64,000 nucleotides of DNA from Bacillota bacterium. GTDB lineage: Bacteria > Bacillota > SHA-98 > UBA4971. Positions 59,202-64,000 of the stretch are shown piece after piece. The first letter of the stretch is position 1. Each line of letters starts with the position of its first letter. The notes below the pieces were generated by a model that was not told the DNA's origin, made no database searches, and saw nothing but the letters and a program-made list of their open reading frames with translations. The position numbers were made by a program, and so were the translations under genes. The stretch lies in contig JANLFY010000012.1 in assembly GCA_024653485.1 (NCBI GenBank), forward strand, positions 1 to 64,000. The letters are read 5' to 3'.

Positions 59202-60353
59202 GTGCCGGTGAAGACAGGGTTGGAGGTGCTCGTCGGAGAAGACTTCGAGCCGCTTGCCGGAAAGCGGGTCGGGCTCATCACGAACCACACGGGCGTGGAT
59301 TCGCGCTCTAGGAGCGCAATCGATATCCTGGCTGAAAGCGACAGGGTGAGGCTTGTGGCCATCTTCGGTCCCGAGCACGGCGTGCGCGGCACTGCCCAAG
59401 CGGGGGAGAAGGTGGCGTCGGGGATGGATGAGAAGACCGGGCTGCCCGTGCACAGTCTGTACGGCGATACCACGAGGCCCACCCCTGAGATGTTGGTCGG
59501 CGTGGACGCGCTGGTGTACGACATCCAGGATGTTGGCGTGAGGTTCTACACGTACGTGTCGACGATGGCCCACGCCATGCAGGCCGCGGCAGCACATGAC
59601 CTGGAGTTCTTTGTGCTCGATCGGCCGAATCCACTGGGAGGGCTGGTAACGGAGGGGCCTGTCCTCAAGAATGAGTTTGCGTCGTTCGTGGGCGTCTACC
59701 CGATACCGGTGAGGTATGGCCTGACCGTGGGCGAGCTCGCCGGCCTTCTCAGCACGGAGTTCGGGATAGGGGCGCGTCTTCGTGTCATCCGGATGGAGGG
59801 GTGGCGCCGTGACATGTGGTTTGACGACACAGGACTGCAGTGGGTGAAGCCTTCACCTAACCTTCCTACGCTAGCGAGCGCCGCTGTCTACCCGGGGACG
59901 TGCTTCATCGAGGGGTTCGCCAACGTATCCGAGGGGCGCGGCACCGACCGCCCGTTTGAGTGGGTGGGCGCGCCGTGGATCGATGGGGAGGCACTCGCGC
60001 GCAGGCTGAACACGCTGGAACTGCCGGGGGTGAGATTCGCCGGGCGCCAGCTCACGCCCGCCTTTTCGAAGAACGCCGGCGTGCCGTGCGGCGGGGTGGA
60101 GATCGTGGTGACGGACAGAGAAGCTTTCCGACCCGTCGGGACGGGGCTTCATCTGGTGGCTGCCATCCTGGATATGGGTCGTGGGCGTGCGGTGTGGGCG
60201 CATGGGGGAAGTCACTTCGACAGACTCATGGGCACTGACGAGGTGCGCACCATGCTACAGCAGGGAGTGAACGCAAGGGACATCGTCGCGTCGTGGGAAG
60301 AAGACCTCGAGGCCTTTCGGGAGATGAGAGAGAGGCATCTTCTGTACCGATAG
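59202..60353 (+). CDS. namZ: DUF1343/NamZ-type exo-beta-N-acetylmuramidase
   Basis: The DUF1343 family includes Bacillus NamZ (YbbC), an exo-N-acetylmuramidase that releases MurNAc from peptidoglycan ends. The 383-residue protein shows GLITNHTGVDSRSRSAID, FGPEHGVRGTAQAG, LVYDIQDVGVRFYTYVSTMA and EGRGTDRPFEWVGAPW. Bacillus NamZ has a signal peptide; none is evident from GTG 59202, set by AGGAGGG 10 bases upstream, so a cytoplasmic role or a misassigned start must be considered. It complements the anmK cluster at 12-14 kb in MurNAc recycling. Confidence 0.88.
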   Translation: MPVKTGLEVLVGEDFEPLAGKRVGLITNHTGVDSRSRSAIDILAESDRVRLVAIFGPEHGVRGTAQAGEKVASGMDEKTGLPVHSLYGDTTRPTPEMLVGVDALVYDIQDVGVRFYTYVSTMAHAMQAAAAHDLEFFVLDRPNPLGGLVTEGPVLKNEFASFVGVYPIPVRYGLTVGELAGLLSTEFGIGARLRVIRMEGWRRDMWFDDTGLQWVKPSPNLPTLASAAVYPGTCFIEGFANVSEGRGTDRPFEWVGAPWIDGEALARRLNTLELPGVRFAGRQLTPAFSKNAGVPCGGVEIVVTDREAFRPVGTGLHLVAAILDMGRGRAVWAHGGSHFDRLMGTDEVRTMLQQGVNARDIVASWEEDLEAFREMRERHLLYR

Positions 60354-60432
60354 TCACCGGCAGTCGACAGAGGTGATGTACAGGTGCGGCTGATTGACCG
60401 ACACCCACACCGGTACCCCGGTACCCGGGGCC

Positions 60433-60461
60433 TTGCTCTTGGCTTGCGGATGTGCTACAAT
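60433..60461 (+). promoter_or_regulatory. Promoter of tRNA-Ser(GCU)-tRNA-Arg
   Basis: TTGCTC (60433-60438), 17 bases, TACAAT (60456-60461), 47 bases before the first tRNA. A tandem CCGGTACC repeat (60410-60425) lies upstream. Confidence 0.65.
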
Positions 60462-60508
60462 GACAATGCGGCGACGGCCATGTGAAAGCGGCATAGATAG
60501 TCTTACGC

Positions 60509-60603
60509 GGAGAGATACCCAAGCTGGCTGAAGGGGAAGGTTTGCTAAACCTTTAGACGGTTGAACAAACCGTGCGGGGGTTCGAATCCCCCTCTCTCCG
60601 CCA
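60509..60603 (+). tRNA. tRNA-Ser(GCU)
   Basis: A 95-base type II tRNA with encoded CCA. Acceptor GGAGAGA/TCTCTCC, discriminator G. Anticodon stem AAGGT/ACCTT with loop TTGCTAA, anticodon GCT (codons AGC/AGU). Long variable arm, T loop TTCGAAT. Confidence 0.96.
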
Positions 60604-60661
60604 CCTTTCGACCACCACGACGGCCCGCGGGCCGTCTGTTCGCATAACGCACGTGTTTCGC

Positions 60662-60738
60662 GCGCCCGTAGCTCAGTGGATCAGAGCATCTGACTTCGGA
60701 TCAGAGGGTCGTGGGTTCGAGTCCCTCCGGGCGCGCCA
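60662..60738 (+). tRNA. tRNA-Arg(UCG)
   Basis: A 77-base cloverleaf with encoded CCA. Acceptor GCGCCCG/CGGGCGC. Anticodon stem TCTGA/TCAGA, loop CTTCGGA, anticodon TCG (codon CGA, and other CGN by wobble). T arm TTCGAGT. It is probably co-transcribed with tRNA-Ser(GCU). Confidence 0.95.
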
Positions 60739-60748
60739 GGGTTTAGTT

Positions 60749-60785
60749 GGGGCTTCGCGAAGTCGCGAGGCTCCCTATTCTTTTT
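60749..60785 (+). terminator. Terminator of the tRNA-Ser/tRNA-Arg unit
   Basis: GGGGCTTCGCGA (60749-60760) pairs with TCGCGAGGCTCC (60763-60774), two G-U pairs, loop AG, then a T-rich CTATTCTTTTT tail. Confidence 0.82.
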
Positions 60786-60891
60786 CGTGTTCCTTTTCGT
60801 GCAAGCCTCCAGAGGCCTTCCCGACGATCAGCGTATCTTCTTCCCGCCGCTAGTCTCAGAGAAGAGTTTGAGCGTGGATCGTTTTGCCAGC

Positions 60892-60920
60892 TTGACACAC
60901 TCGCGAGGACATGCTATAGT
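60892..60920 (+). promoter_or_regulatory. Promoter of the ABC/BlaI operon
   Basis: TTGACA (60892-60897), 17 bases, TATAGT (60915-60920). One mismatch. Start near 60927, inside the palindrome described next. Confidence 0.85.
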
Positions 60921-60926
60921 GCGAAG

Positions 60927-60943
60927 TACTATATGAAATAGTA
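60927..60943 (+). promoter_or_regulatory. BlaI/MecI-like operator palindrome
   Basis: TACTAT, five bases, ATAGTA: a perfect inverted repeat that begins at the predicted transcription start. BlaI/MecI-family operators are built on TACTAC/TACA half-sites, so it closely resembles them. A BlaI-family gene lies at the end of the same operon. Confidence 0.7.
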
Positions 60944-61012
60944 TTACGAAGCATAGCGTTCCCGAGCTCTTGGCCAAATGGGGCGCGGCGAACACGAAAC
61001 GGAGGTCGGAGG

Positions 61013-61450
61013 ATGAAAGGTCAAACCAACTCAGAATCATCGCAGAGGCCTGGATGGTCAAGGAGACTTGGCCCGTACGCGATTGTGTGTTTAGTGGCTG
61101 TGAGTGCGGGAGCTCTGTATGCCAGCCCTCGCGGACTCACGTGGTCGAGGAGGAGGAGGATTGCCCCCAGGGCCGGACTAGCCGGCGTCGCCCGCTGCGC
61201 AGGCTGCGTTGGAGGAGGCATCTCTAGGCCCGACGGTCCCGTCGGGAGCGCGGCTATGGACCCGTTTGCCGACATCCGACAGGAAGTCCTCACGTACTAC
61301 CGTTCCAGGTACAGAGATGACGACCCGGGAGTAAGCACGCAGGTCACAGACTACGGCTGCCATGTCGGGGTCGACGTGGTCAAGGACGGAAAGGTCGTGA
61401 AATCCTTCGCGTACTTCGGGGAGGGTCAGTTCTACGAACAAGACTGGTAA
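61013..61450 (+). CDS. Small exported or membrane-anchored protein of unknown function
   Basis: First gene of the BlaI-linked operon, 145 residues. A basic N-terminus is followed by one hydrophobic segment (about 21-38, YAIVCLVAVSAGALYAS), then an Arg-rich spacer with CAGC near 62. The globular C-terminal domain (80-145) is acidic (PFADIRQEVLTYYRS... then VDVVKDGKVVKSFAYFGEG). I do not recognise a family. It may be a signal-anchored accessory factor to the ABC transporter. ATG 61013 has GGAGG 7 bases upstream. Confidence 0.7.
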   Translation: MKGQTNSESSQRPGWSRRLGPYAIVCLVAVSAGALYASPRGLTWSRRRRIAPRAGLAGVARCAGCVGGGISRPDGPVGSAAMDPFADIRQEVLTYYRSRYRDDDPGVSTQVTDYGCHVGVDVVKDGKVVKSFAYFGEGQFYEQDW

Positions 61451-61502
61451 GGATTGGCGACTGTGCACTGACAGCTACTGCGGAAACGGAGGAGATGCTG
61501 GA

Positions 61503-62681
61503 ATGAGCTTGTTCACGATCGTCTGGGACGGGATCAGACGCCGAAAGATCCGTTCCGCGCTTTCCATCCTCGGAATCGCCATCGCCTCCACGGCTCTTTT
61601 CAGTCTGCTCGCCCTAAAGCTAGGCTATGAACGGGGCATGCGCGCGGAGCTGGAAGGCATGGGCGCCCAGATAGTCGCTGTGGCCAAGGGCTGCCCGTAC
61701 GAAGCGATCGCCGTGATAATGACCGGCGGCCAGGTGCCCGCAACTCTGCCTGAGAACGTGGTGGAAGAGATCCGGAACCTTCCCAATGTCGCAAGCGCAT
61801 CTCCGAACGTGTACGGCGCTTACGAGTACTTGGGCCTTTCGCACCCGCTAATCGGCATAACACCCGAGGAGCTCAGACTCAAGTCCTGGTGGAAAGTGCG
61901 GGGACGCTTTCCCCGGGACTTCGGTGAAGTCGTCCTCGGTAGCGTGGAGGCGAAGGTTTTTGCGGAGAAGAGCAGTGAGTTCAATGAGATCGGCGACTCG
62001 ATCACCGCAGTGGTCGGGGGGAAGCCTGTCTCTCTCAAGGTCGTTGGCATCCTCGAGACCACCGGCTCGAAAGACGACTATTCCACTTACACCACTCTCC
62101 AAACCGCGCAAGAGCTCCTGAACCTGAGGGGTCGTGTCGTGGCGGTGAACGTCAGGGTCAAAGACATCAGCACCGTTCCGGAGACGATCGAGGCCATCGA
62201 GGAGATCCCGGACGTGCAGGCTGTCACCGTGGCCCAGGTGCTCGGGACGCTTCGGAACCTCGTCCAGGCGGGGCAGAGTATGCTGATCCTCGTAATGCTG
62301 GTTGCGCTTGTCATCGGCGGGCTTGGCACGATGAACACCATGCTCATGGCGGTTTTCGAAAGAACCCGTGAAATCGGTCTATTGAAGGCCATCGGCGCCT
62401 CGCGGTGGCAGATCTTCAAGATCTTCCTCTGCGAGGGCTTGGGCATGTGCTTCTTCGGGGGCTTGTTGGGGGCGGGCGCCGGTTCATTGGCTACCCTGAT
62501 GGGTGATGCAATCTTGAGACGGTTCGTTTCGGTCATGCCTACCCAGTCCGTCGGCCAACCCTCGCTGCACGCGGCTTTCGTTTCGGTGCTCTTCCCGGTG
62601 GGCGTGGGGGTTCTGGCGGCTCTCTACCCTGCCCTGCGCGCCGCCTGGCTGAGTCCCATCCAAGCTCTGAGGAGTGAATGA
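61503..62681 (+). CDS. MacB/FtsX-type ABC transporter permease
   Basis: A 392-residue permease with one N-terminal segment (about 18-40), a large extracytoplasmic domain (45-255, containing AKGCPYEAIAVIMTGG with one Cys) and three C-terminal segments (about 260-390, with FERTREIGLLKAIGASRWQI). This is the mechanotransmission layout of MacB/LolC-type exporters rather than of importers. The ATPase gene follows after 21 bases. The Cys-containing loop and the next genes' Cys motif suggest a redox or metal-linked cargo (inference only). Confidence 0.9.
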   Translation: MSLFTIVWDGIRRRKIRSALSILGIAIASTALFSLLALKLGYERGMRAELEGMGAQIVAVAKGCPYEAIAVIMTGGQVPATLPENVVEEIRNLPNVASASPNVYGAYEYLGLSHPLIGITPEELRLKSWWKVRGRFPRDFGEVVLGSVEAKVFAEKSSEFNEIGDSITAVVGGKPVSLKVVGILETTGSKDDYSTYTTLQTAQELLNLRGRVVAVNVRVKDISTVPETIEAIEEIPDVQAVTVAQVLGTLRNLVQAGQSMLILVMLVALVIGGLGTMNTMLMAVFERTREIGLLKAIGASRWQIFKIFLCEGLGMCFFGGLLGAGAGSLATLMGDAILRRFVSVMPTQSVGQPSLHAAFVSVLFPVGVGVLAALYPALRAAWLSPIQALRSE

Positions 62682-62702
62682 CGCATCAGGAGGTGACCAT
62701 CT

Positions 62703-63383
62703 GTGGTAAACGTCGAGAATCTGAGCAAAGTGTACCGACGTGGGAGAGAAGAGGTCCGCGCGCTAGCCGGTCTATCACTGCACATTCAGGCGGGCGAGCT
62801 CGTGGGGATCCTTGGACCCTCTGGTTCGGGAAAGTCGACTCTCTTGAACATCATCGGCCTGCTCGACCGGCCAACGAGTGGCCGCGTGCTCATCGCGGGC
62901 CGTCCGGTAGAGCAACTGGGCCCGCGGGAAGCGGACCTCGTGCGTCGGAAGACCATCGGTTTCGTTTTCCAACAGTTTCTCCTGGTCCCCACCATGACGG
63001 CACTTGAAAACGTCATGTTACCGATGTATTTCGCCGGTGATCCCTGTGCTCGCGATAAGGCCGCAGGGCTGCTCCGCAGGGTCGGTCTGGGCGACCGCAT
63101 GTTTCATCTGCCGTCCCAGATGAGCGGCGGTGAGATCCAGCGGGTTGCGGTGGCCAGAGCCCTCGCAAACGAGCCGTCGGTTCTCCTTGCCGACGAGCCC
63201 ACGGGCAACCTGGATAGCAGCACCGCCGAGGATGTGTTCGGCCTGCTGCGGGAGGTCAACAGAACGGGTACCACGGTGATAGTCGTGACACACAACTCGG
63301 AGCTGGCCGGCTTGTTGCCTCGTACGATCGTGATGCGAGACGGGAGAGTGACGAGGGATGTCAAGAAGAGCTCGGCTGCTTAG
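62703..63383 (+). CDS. MacB/LolD-type ABC transporter ATPase
   Basis: A 226-residue ATPase that pairs with the permease. Walker A GPSGSGKSTLLN, Q-loop FVFQQFLLVPTMTALEN, signature MSGGEIQRVAVARAL and Walker B VLLADEPTGNLDS are intact. The LADEPTGNLDS form is characteristic of the MacB/LolD group. GTG 62703 has AGGAGGTG upstream. The following gene overlaps it by 26 bases. Confidence 0.94.
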   Translation: MVNVENLSKVYRRGREEVRALAGLSLHIQAGELVGILGPSGSGKSTLLNIIGLLDRPTSGRVLIAGRPVEQLGPREADLVRRKTIGFVFQQFLLVPTMTALENVMLPMYFAGDPCARDKAAGLLRRVGLGDRMFHLPSQMSGGEIQRVAVARALANEPSVLLADEPTGNLDSSTAEDVFGLLREVNRTGTTVIVVTHNSELAGLLPRTIVMRDGRVTRDVKKSSAA

Positions 63384-63759
63384 ATGGGTGATCGGTATGT
63401 CAGTCGTTGTGGCGCTAGCGCTAACCGCAGTGATCGCGGTGCGTGGCGCCGGAGGGGCGACAAGATACGGCGCCCCCGTGGGCGCGGGCGGAGCTGAGGT
63501 TGTCGAGCTGGCCAACATTTTCGCTGATACCACCAGCTACAACGGAAGGAGGGTCGTCGTCAGTGGGCGGGTAGGGCAGGTGTGCCAGACTTCGGGGTGC
63601 TGGATCACGCTTACGGACGGCGCAAACCAGCTATTCGTTCAGTTCTATGATTTCACGGTCAAGGTCAGGCCGGGAGCCCGGGTCCGCGTACAGGGCACTG
63701 TCCGCGTGATCAACAGTGCTCCATATCTCGTCGGTGAGGGTTTGGAAGTCAATGGATGA
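63358..63759 (+). CDS. Exported OB-fold protein with CxxxxCW motif (DUF4920-like)
   Basis: A 133-residue protein with a signal-anchor (about 9-29, VIGMSVVVALALTAVIAVRG). The extracytoplasmic domain (50-133) reads as a small beta-barrel: VVVSGRVGQVCQTSGCWITL, then FVQFYDFTVKV and VRVQGTVRV. The GxVxxVCQxxGCW motif resembles DUF4920-type proteins, whose paired Cys suggests metal or disulfide chemistry; the biological role is unknown. Overlap with the ATPase gene shows coupling. The next gene is the repressor. Confidence 0.72.
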   Translation: MSRRARLLRWVIGMSVVVALALTAVIAVRGAGGATRYGAPVGAGGAEVVELANIFADTTSYNGRRVVVSGRVGQVCQTSGCWITLTDGANQLFVQFYDFTVKVRPGARVRVQGTVRVINSAPYLVGEGLEVNG

Positions 63760-63854
63760 GCGAGGAACGCAGAATAGGGCGCCGCCTTCATGTACTTCTC
63801 CCGCAGTTCCAAGTGATGTACAATGGAAGAAGCGACGAACTGGGAGTGGTGGCA

Positions 63855-64000
63855 GTGTTTCGCTTGCTTGAATTCAAGCCGGGCAGGAAGGGCCTCGGCA
63901 AGGTGCTGGGCGACCTGGAGGCGGAGATCATGGAAGAGGTGTGGGCGAGGGGCACCTGCACAGTTCGAGACATATACGAGGGACTCCGCATGAGAAGGCG
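63855..64000 (+). CDS. BlaI/MecI/CopY-family repressor (truncated by window end)
   Basis: The visible 48 residues cover the first helices of a winged-helix repressor: LGDLEAEIMEEVWARGTCTVRDIYEGL, in line with the BlaI start LxxLExxIMxxLW. GTG 63855 is 8 bases from GGGAG. The recognition helix and C-terminal dimerisation region lie outside. Such repressors usually pair with a BlaR1-type membrane protease, which could follow beyond the window. The operon-start palindrome (60927-60943) is its likely target. Confidence 0.85.
   Translation, partial: MFRLLEFKPGRKGLGKVLGDLEAEIMEEVWARGTCTVRDIYEGLRMRR

Follow-up and report, generated by a model that had tools for sequence, protein, structure and literature searches.

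A BlaI repressor and a cysteine-bearing M56 peptidase as the predicted switch of an FtsX-type transporter operon in a Bacillota genome

The window analyzed in this work comprises the first 64,000 bases of contig JANLFY010000012.1 from the genome of a Bacillota bacterium (assembly GCA_024653485.1), and near its 3' end lies a six-gene operon encoding, in this order, the small protein P1, a MacB-type permease and an ATPase of an ATP-binding cassette (ABC) system, an OB protein, a BlaI-family repressor and an M56 peptidase (Table 1). The contig runs to 73273, and the 3' end of the operon was read beyond the window. The operon is preceded by a sigma-70-type promoter, no other promoter-like site being found in 60300-64000, and the palindrome TACTATATGAAATAGTA, a perfect TACTAT-N5-ATAGTA, begins 6 nt past the -10 box and overlies the promoter start site. 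This sequence occurs once in the window (0 copies in 100 shuffles; expected 0.00) and is the sole exact copy in the whole 3,004,240-base genome. Matches with one mismatch elsewhere in the genome number 6, versus 25 for a reversed control, so no further regulon is claimed. A first-pass annotation of the window had already placed a perfect palindrome on the start site of this promoter and listed an exported protein, a MacB-type transporter, a Cys-motif OB protein and a BlaI-family gene behind it, all of which was borne out. It had let the operon end in BlaI, but the M56 peptidase gene comes after the repressor gene; the BlaR1-like gene that it proposed to look for past position 64000 is thus present, but without a beta-lactam sensor domain.

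Table 1. Positions of the promoter, operator, genes and left boundary of the operon
Feature	Position	Strand	Support
tRNA-Arg, left edge of the inserted operon	60662..60738	+	sister-genome similarity ends at ~60740
Sigma-70-type promoter, TTGACA-N17-TATAGT with extended TG	60892..60920	+	11/12 consensus matches
Operator palindrome TACTATATGAAATAGTA, predicted BlaI-dimer site	60927..60943	+	family consensus TACTAY-N5-RTAGTA, also present at the promoters of other BlaI operons, both orthologous and distant
P1, 145 aa	61013..61450	+	no Pfam family above cut-off
MacB/FtsX-type ABC permease	61503..62681	+	MacB_PCD E=3e-20, FtsX E=3e-18
LolD/MacB-type ABC ATPase	62703..63383	+	ABC_tran E=1.5e-33; LolD best, under equivalog cut-off
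Exported OB-fold protein, DUF4920-like, CQTSGCW	63358..63759	+	PF16267 E=2.7e-6, above cut-off
BlaI-family repressor gene	63756..64271 (true start probably ~63846)	+	PF03965 E=1.1e-26
M56 peptidase gene, BlaR1-type	64296-65267 (contig)	+	PF05569 E=1.4e-12

The repressor is the sole BlaI-family member in the genome. The possibility, raised in the first-pass annotation, that the complete protein would belong to another family was checked, and the Penicillinase_R winged-helix domain (PF03965) covers 114 of 115 positions. The open reading frame probably includes about 30 surplus N-terminal residues, as the homologues start at the codon matching GTG 63846 or slightly downstream of it, and the M56 gene begins 24 bases past the BlaI end. 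With CopY/CopR the protein shares its superfamily (TIGR02698, 4e-16, below the cut-off), but it differs from these copper regulators in having an M56 partner and no C-terminal CXC metal motifs in the BlaI alignment; likewise, no cop box KACANNTGTA was found in 60892-60960. Copper sensing by BlaI itself, in the manner of CopY, was ruled out because the CXC motifs are lacking. The staphylococcal-type TACA/TGTA dyad is not the operator here either (dyad, CXC motif and cop box as defined in PMC7253601), its place being taken by TACTAY-N5-RTAGTA. Other BlaI proteins use other half-sites, so that an operator without TACA/TGTA does not exclude membership in the BlaI/MecI family. BlaI of Clostridium thermocellum binds GTCTAT-N5-ATAGAC, which has the same spacing as the operator described here (PMC8457756); its half-site differs, and the operons in that paper's account contain no ABC/P1/FtrD module.

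By genome comparison, three families of the class have this gene set and operator, and many families of the phylum have them in rearranged form; the switch, its DNA site and the transporter are shared by numerous anaerobic bacteria. Two close permease orthologues (81-82%), from other families of the same class, each lie in an operon of these six genes in the same order. G033 and its family have a second, more distant form, P1-BlaI-M56-permease-ATPase, and several other families have a third, BlaI-M56-FtrD-like-P1-permease-ATPase-permease. A fourth, BlaI-M56-FtrD-permease-ATPase-permease, was recovered by the M56 profile search and in one checked case adjoins cytochrome c maturation (ccm) genes. 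The FtrD-like protein (DUF2318, PF10080) is present in most group-C relatives. In L227-L229, L231 and L232, a ccm-like cluster (CcmB, CcmC-type assembly protein and ATPase; Pfam-checked in L228 only) precedes BlaI-M56-FtrD-ABC.

In 21 BlaI operons, the 200 bases that precede the first gene were scanned for the operator motif. Whether homologous operons lack the site, a point on which the first-pass annotation had let its proposal depend, could thereby be checked: TACTAY-N5-RTAGTA is found with 0 or 1 mismatch upstream of 20 of the 21 (exact in 17, one mismatch in 3). The best match before two P1 operons without BlaI has at least three mismatches. Counted over whole loci, 42 exact operators lie in 36 BlaI/M56 loci (439 kb) and 1 in 33 homologous GCPYEA ABC loci without BlaI (382 kb), the chance expectation calculated from 10 fixed and 2 twofold pattern positions being ~0.1 sites; related loci are not independent, yet half-site variants and spacers vary between families. 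The lone site of the control set lies ~60 nt before the permease start in L078, which comes from a metagenome-assembled genome (MAG) of Desulfovibrio. It predicted a BlaI/M56 pair elsewhere in the bin, and the search found one (E=2e-92) adjoining P1, in a locus (L248) that carries two exact operators of its own. In this genome, Desulfovibrio sp. DeMMO6_25, the ABC operon and BlaI-M56-P1 thus lie on separate contigs with a common operator and would form a regulon in trans, unless a MAG binning error has mixed the bin. In the rearranged operons, a second exact operator lies just upstream of the permease gene (L025:7495, with equivalents in L056-L061), so the permease and ATPase may have a BlaI-controlled promoter of their own. 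The conservation of the operator at homologous BlaI operons makes autoregulation through the palindrome, as proposed in the first-pass annotation, very probable.

The M56 protein contains an HExxH motif with a downstream Glu, and an alignment of 23 M56 proteins shows H195, E196, H199, E236 and D240 to be invariant. The same alignment has invariant cysteines at C64, C87 and C323, the last of which is the residue that ends the protein directly after helix 4. Sequence and fold searches both returned Staphylococcus aureus BlaR1 (8exp), whose helices and protease domain can be aligned with those of the M56 protein. A penicillin-binding sensor domain was found neither in this protein nor in any linked relative. 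The AlphaFold model (pLDDT 81) contains three helices (3-30, 35-67 and 81-128), followed by the protease domain and a final helix, 307-322. It shows C64 in the end of helix 2, C87 where helix 3 begins and C323 past helix 4. In BlaR1, helices 2 and 3 are joined by the extracellular loop EL1, which signals to helix 3 and the protease (PMC9834060). Given this location of EL1, and a BlaR1 sensor placed after the last membrane helix, we infer by homology an outward-facing position of C64, C87 and C323, corresponding to loop 1 and the sensor of BlaR1.

When the M56 set was widened to 42 by further members found via a profile, the C87 position was occupied by Cys in all 42 and a C-terminal Cys was present in 41, as the last residue in 40 and third from last in L233; it is missing in the L200 protein, whose reading frame ends differently. 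The ccm-linked M56 proteins (L227-L229, L231, L232) keep C87 and the terminal Cys and have lost C64. None of 16 other M56 proteins, most of them from the same genomes and BlaR1-sized ones included, combines a Cys at the C87 position with a C-terminal Cys, and a distant relative, L243, has cysteines near both places, not at these positions. M56/BlaI pairs of the cysteine type are also encountered without this ABC system, adjoining carbonic anhydrase, LysE and DUF2953 genes or CobW and Fe-S genes (L198, L201 and L202, also L199 and L193), so a sensor of this clade would serve more than this transporter.

The products of the other genes of the operon also carry conserved cysteines. The permease has the signature A-x-AKGCPYEA in its extracytoplasmic core, and GCP[YFH]EA is conserved in 40 of 41 relatives, most of which did not match the motif-based search pattern and were found through another pattern. 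The OB family motif C..GCW has its first Cys in 31 of 31 members and the GCW Cys in 81%. With this core, a LolD-type ATPase and an OB protein with C..GCW, the window operon has all the features used to define the GCPYEA-permease ABC group. P1 is modelled with one N-terminal membrane helix, a Cys-containing linker and a C-terminal alpha-beta4 domain bearing YGCH, of which G-C-H is invariant in 13 sequences. A structure search with P1 gave no PDB match at E<=0.001, and a profile comparison detected no relation to the RnfG-like protein of the sister operons described below. Among 398 genomes of the phylum, 28 encode a member of the P1 domain family; in L062 and L063, the members have no adjacent BlaI or ABC genes, and in L063 an ArsP-family permease and a SOD-like reading frame lie within 2 kb of the P1-family gene. 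As in the type VII ABC transporters MacB and LolCDE, the permease has an FtsX fold with a MacB periplasmic core and is paired with a LolD-type ATPase; unlike in those systems, the ATPase is separate, the core bears the GCPYEA signature and the operon holds no MacA or LolA partner. No beta-lactamase or penicillin-binding protein is encoded in the operon either. The FtsX-type complex may export its substrate, or it may perform mechanotransmission or redox work instead.

The same transporter family was also found under another regulator. In eight operons (L087, L092-L095, L099-L101) from MAGs of Omnitrophota, Lentisphaerota, Kiritimatiellae and Eisenbacteria, a CsoR-type repressor (PF02583) is followed by a beta-barrel-like protein, an RnfG-like protein (so labelled because the Armatimonadota/WOR-3 counterpart matches RnfG weakly), usually an OB protein with GCW, the GCPYEA permease and the ATPase. 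All eight PF02583 repressors have a Cys-His-Cys pattern, which we take to be the fingerprint of Cu(I)-type CsoR, and the three that were scanned in NCBIfam score best, well under the cut-off, with the copper-sensing RicR. Apparently, these operons represent a conserved copper-type system that is as yet undescribed. That one transporter family is found under two independent regulators, both suited to metals or thiols, is the chief reason to propose that it acts on a metal or thiol. The conserved cysteines of the permease (GCPYEA), P1 (GCH) and OB protein (C..GCW), together with the CsoR-headed sister operons and the resemblance to FetABCD considered below, indicate that the chemistry outside the membrane concerns metals or thiols.

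Our favoured explanation, which we give somewhat better than an even chance, is that a self-contained BlaI/M56 circuit runs this ABC system for thiophilic-metal or thiol-redox balance outside the cytoplasmic membrane. Its parts are of unequal strength: that BlaI and M56 form an autoregulated circuit is highly probable and that the signal is a metal or a thiol is probable, while copper in particular is a tentative choice that we hold to be rather doubtful. At rest, TACTAT-N5-ATAGTA at the start site would be occupied by a BlaI dimer, which would block the entire operon, including its own gene and that of M56. The M56 protein would act as a BlaR1 minus the penicillin-binding sensor, with a sensing site formed by C87 at the end of extracellular loop 1, usually C64 at its start, and C323 after the fourth membrane helix. 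When these cysteines bind a metal ion, the first guess being a thiophilic one of the Cu(I) kind, or shift in oxidation state, loop 1 and helix 3 would move as in BlaR1, and the cytoplasmic HExxH site would cleave BlaI. Once derepressed, the operon would yield P1, the OB protein and the GCPYEA permease together with its ATPase; these products would handle the metal or thiol outside the membrane and so remove the signal.

Several points weigh against this explanation. Binding of BlaI to the operator, its cleavage and the induction of the operon are all predictions. In L072, the remaining one of the 21 scanned BlaI operons, two exact sites lie before FtrD and not before BlaI, and several of the more distant loci (L226, L234-L240) have no exact copy of the operator. 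A subclade of 8 among the 42 M56 relatives (L225, L227-L229, L231-L233, L236) has lost C64, so a three-cysteine site is not universal, and the two remaining cysteines alone could equally form a disulfide switch. The M56 protein of L237, an M56-linked transporter locus, has neither the loop nor the terminal Cys. P1 has no recognised fold. Finally, the CsoR-headed operons lack BlaI/M56 and belong to other phyla, and their signal may not carry over.

The operon has probably been gained between tRNA-Arg and an arsenic cassette. It was absent from five sampled sister species of the genus, and two sister genomes, G001 and G002, have the same ars cassette some way past their tRNA-Ser/tRNA-Arg pair, with the operon lacking. 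Similarity to the sister genomes stops at ~60740, the 3' end of tRNA-Arg, and resumes at ~65350, 83 bases past the M56 stop codon; the operon and its promoter fill this gap, which suggests that they were acquired there. GC content shows no break at the operon, so the argument for an island is one of gene comparison only. The spot after tRNA-Arg is variable, an ars cassette (ArsR, ACR3, ArsP) being present in two of the five sister genomes and absent from three; the cassette of this genome also holds thioredoxin and CcdA-like genes. A functional link of the operon to the arsenic cassette downstream is not claimed: no tested ars gene lies near the operons of the other families, and in two sister genomes the cassette is present although the operon is not.

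Such a setting, a variable spot beside a tRNA gene that is without the operon in the five sampled sister genomes, would also suit a chance grouping, in which the palindrome is unrelated to BlaI and the operon was randomly assembled. This is contradicted by the recurrence of gene set and operator across families of the class and the phylum and by the operator counts at BlaI operons and loci, and we consider a chance grouping extremely improbable. The export of a toxic compound or antimicrobial peptide is a more substantial alternative, in which BlaI/M56 would sense envelope damage, the MacB-type pump would export and the permease or P1 would act as receptor. It draws on the MacB/LolE-like character of the permease and the export of drugs and peptides by MacB-type pumps, on the classical response of BlaI/BlaR1 pairs to cell-wall antibiotics, and on the interpretation of the C. 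thermocellum BlaI operons as beta-lactam responses (PMC8457756). The M56 protein, however, offers a short loop with an invariant Cys and no ligand-binding domain outside the membrane, the operon encodes no MacA-like adaptor, beta-lactamase or penicillin-binding protein, and it is Cys proteins, FtrD-like proteins, and CsoR or ccm genes, not wall enzymes, that are conserved as partners. We regard this alternative as improbable. The first-pass annotation had suggested envelope stress or toxic-compound export; as stated, this is not supported, nothing having been found that points to antibiotics or peptidoglycan.

Two further alternatives were weighed. The system may support iron uptake in the manner of FetABCD/FtrABCD, its ABC and redox proteins reducing or delivering iron outside the membrane and BlaI/M56 sensing iron or a linked redox state. 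The Bacillota relatives encode the FetABCD set of an FtrD-like protein (PF10080), two FtsX-type permeases and an ATPase, and FetABCD is needed for growth of Campylobacter jejuni on low iron (PMC10783030). Against this, the window operon has one permease and no FtrD-like gene, no FtrD-like protein was found in the genome by a search that had no positive control, and the CsoR regulators of the sister operons are of the copper type. The FTR1/FetM permease is absent from the 98.9% complete genome, the control search being positive in four genomes, and Fet-type iron uptake is rated lower because FTR1 is missing; it is about as improbable as toxic export. The other alternative shares the sensor, though not the cargo, with the favoured explanation and concerns redox alone, without metal: the ABC system would supply reductant or work mechanically on Cys proteins during protein or haem maturation outside the membrane, and the M56 cysteines would be a disulfide switch that the protease reads directly. 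Of these cysteines, C87 and C323 are the two that the clade retains, whereas C64 is dispensed with in some members, a pattern that a disulfide pair would be expected to show; the ccm cluster lies directly upstream in L228, similar layouts flank BlaI in L227, L229, L231 and L232, and FetBCD has been proposed to relay reducing power (PMC10783030). The eight CsoR-headed homologous operons, by contrast, suggest a metal ligand, and the window operon adjoins an ars cassette, not ccm genes. This alternative is unlikely, though less so than the other three.

Like BlaI-BlaR1 and MecI-MecR1, the favoured BlaI/M56 circuit has a PF03965 repressor and, next to it, an M56 membrane protease in which HExxH is combined with a downstream Glu; the dyad operator at the promoter and the location of the repressor gene within its own operon are further similarities. 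The circuit departs from BlaI-BlaR1 in that the M56 protein stops with a Cys after helix 4 and has an invariant Cys in loop 1 instead of a penicillin-binding sensor, that the operator is TACTAY-N5-RTAGTA and not TACA/TGTA, and that the target is an ABC system and not a beta-lactamase or penicillin-binding protein. The view of the first-pass annotation that this is not a beta-lactamase switch is thereby supported. C. jejuni FetABCD (P19/FetMP system) and FtrABCD are matched by the Bacillota relatives that hold FtrD/DUF2318, two FtsX-type permeases and one ATPase in one operon; the window operon differs in having P1 and OB in place of FtrD and a single permease, in a genome without FTR1/FetM. 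For FetBCD of C. jejuni, the substrate is unknown and a redox role was proposed (PMC10783030), and control of Fet by BlaI/M56 was not described in the literature searched. Nor was a paper found that describes the combination of this switch, operator and transporter, in a literature search that had most subscription journals outside its reach.

Penicillin sensing by BlaR1 is the textbook case, yet many genomes carry BlaI/M56 pairs without a penicillin-binding domain, and no paper was found that states what such pairs sense. We give an even chance to the proposal that the M56 proteins of this clade represent a new class of one-protein transmembrane sensors, in which a cysteine site made of loop 1 and the last residue replaces the sensor domain of BlaR1, reads metal or redox state directly and leads to cleavage of BlaI, and which would control an ABC system for extracytoplasmic metal or thiol homeostasis across many anaerobes. 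For this clade, candidate sensing residues (C87, C323 and usually C64), an operator (TACTAY-N5-RTAGTA) and an output can be named, so that the question of the sensor-less M56 proteins becomes experimentally tractable. If true, the proposal would also add a function to the FtsX-type ABC systems related to FetBCD.

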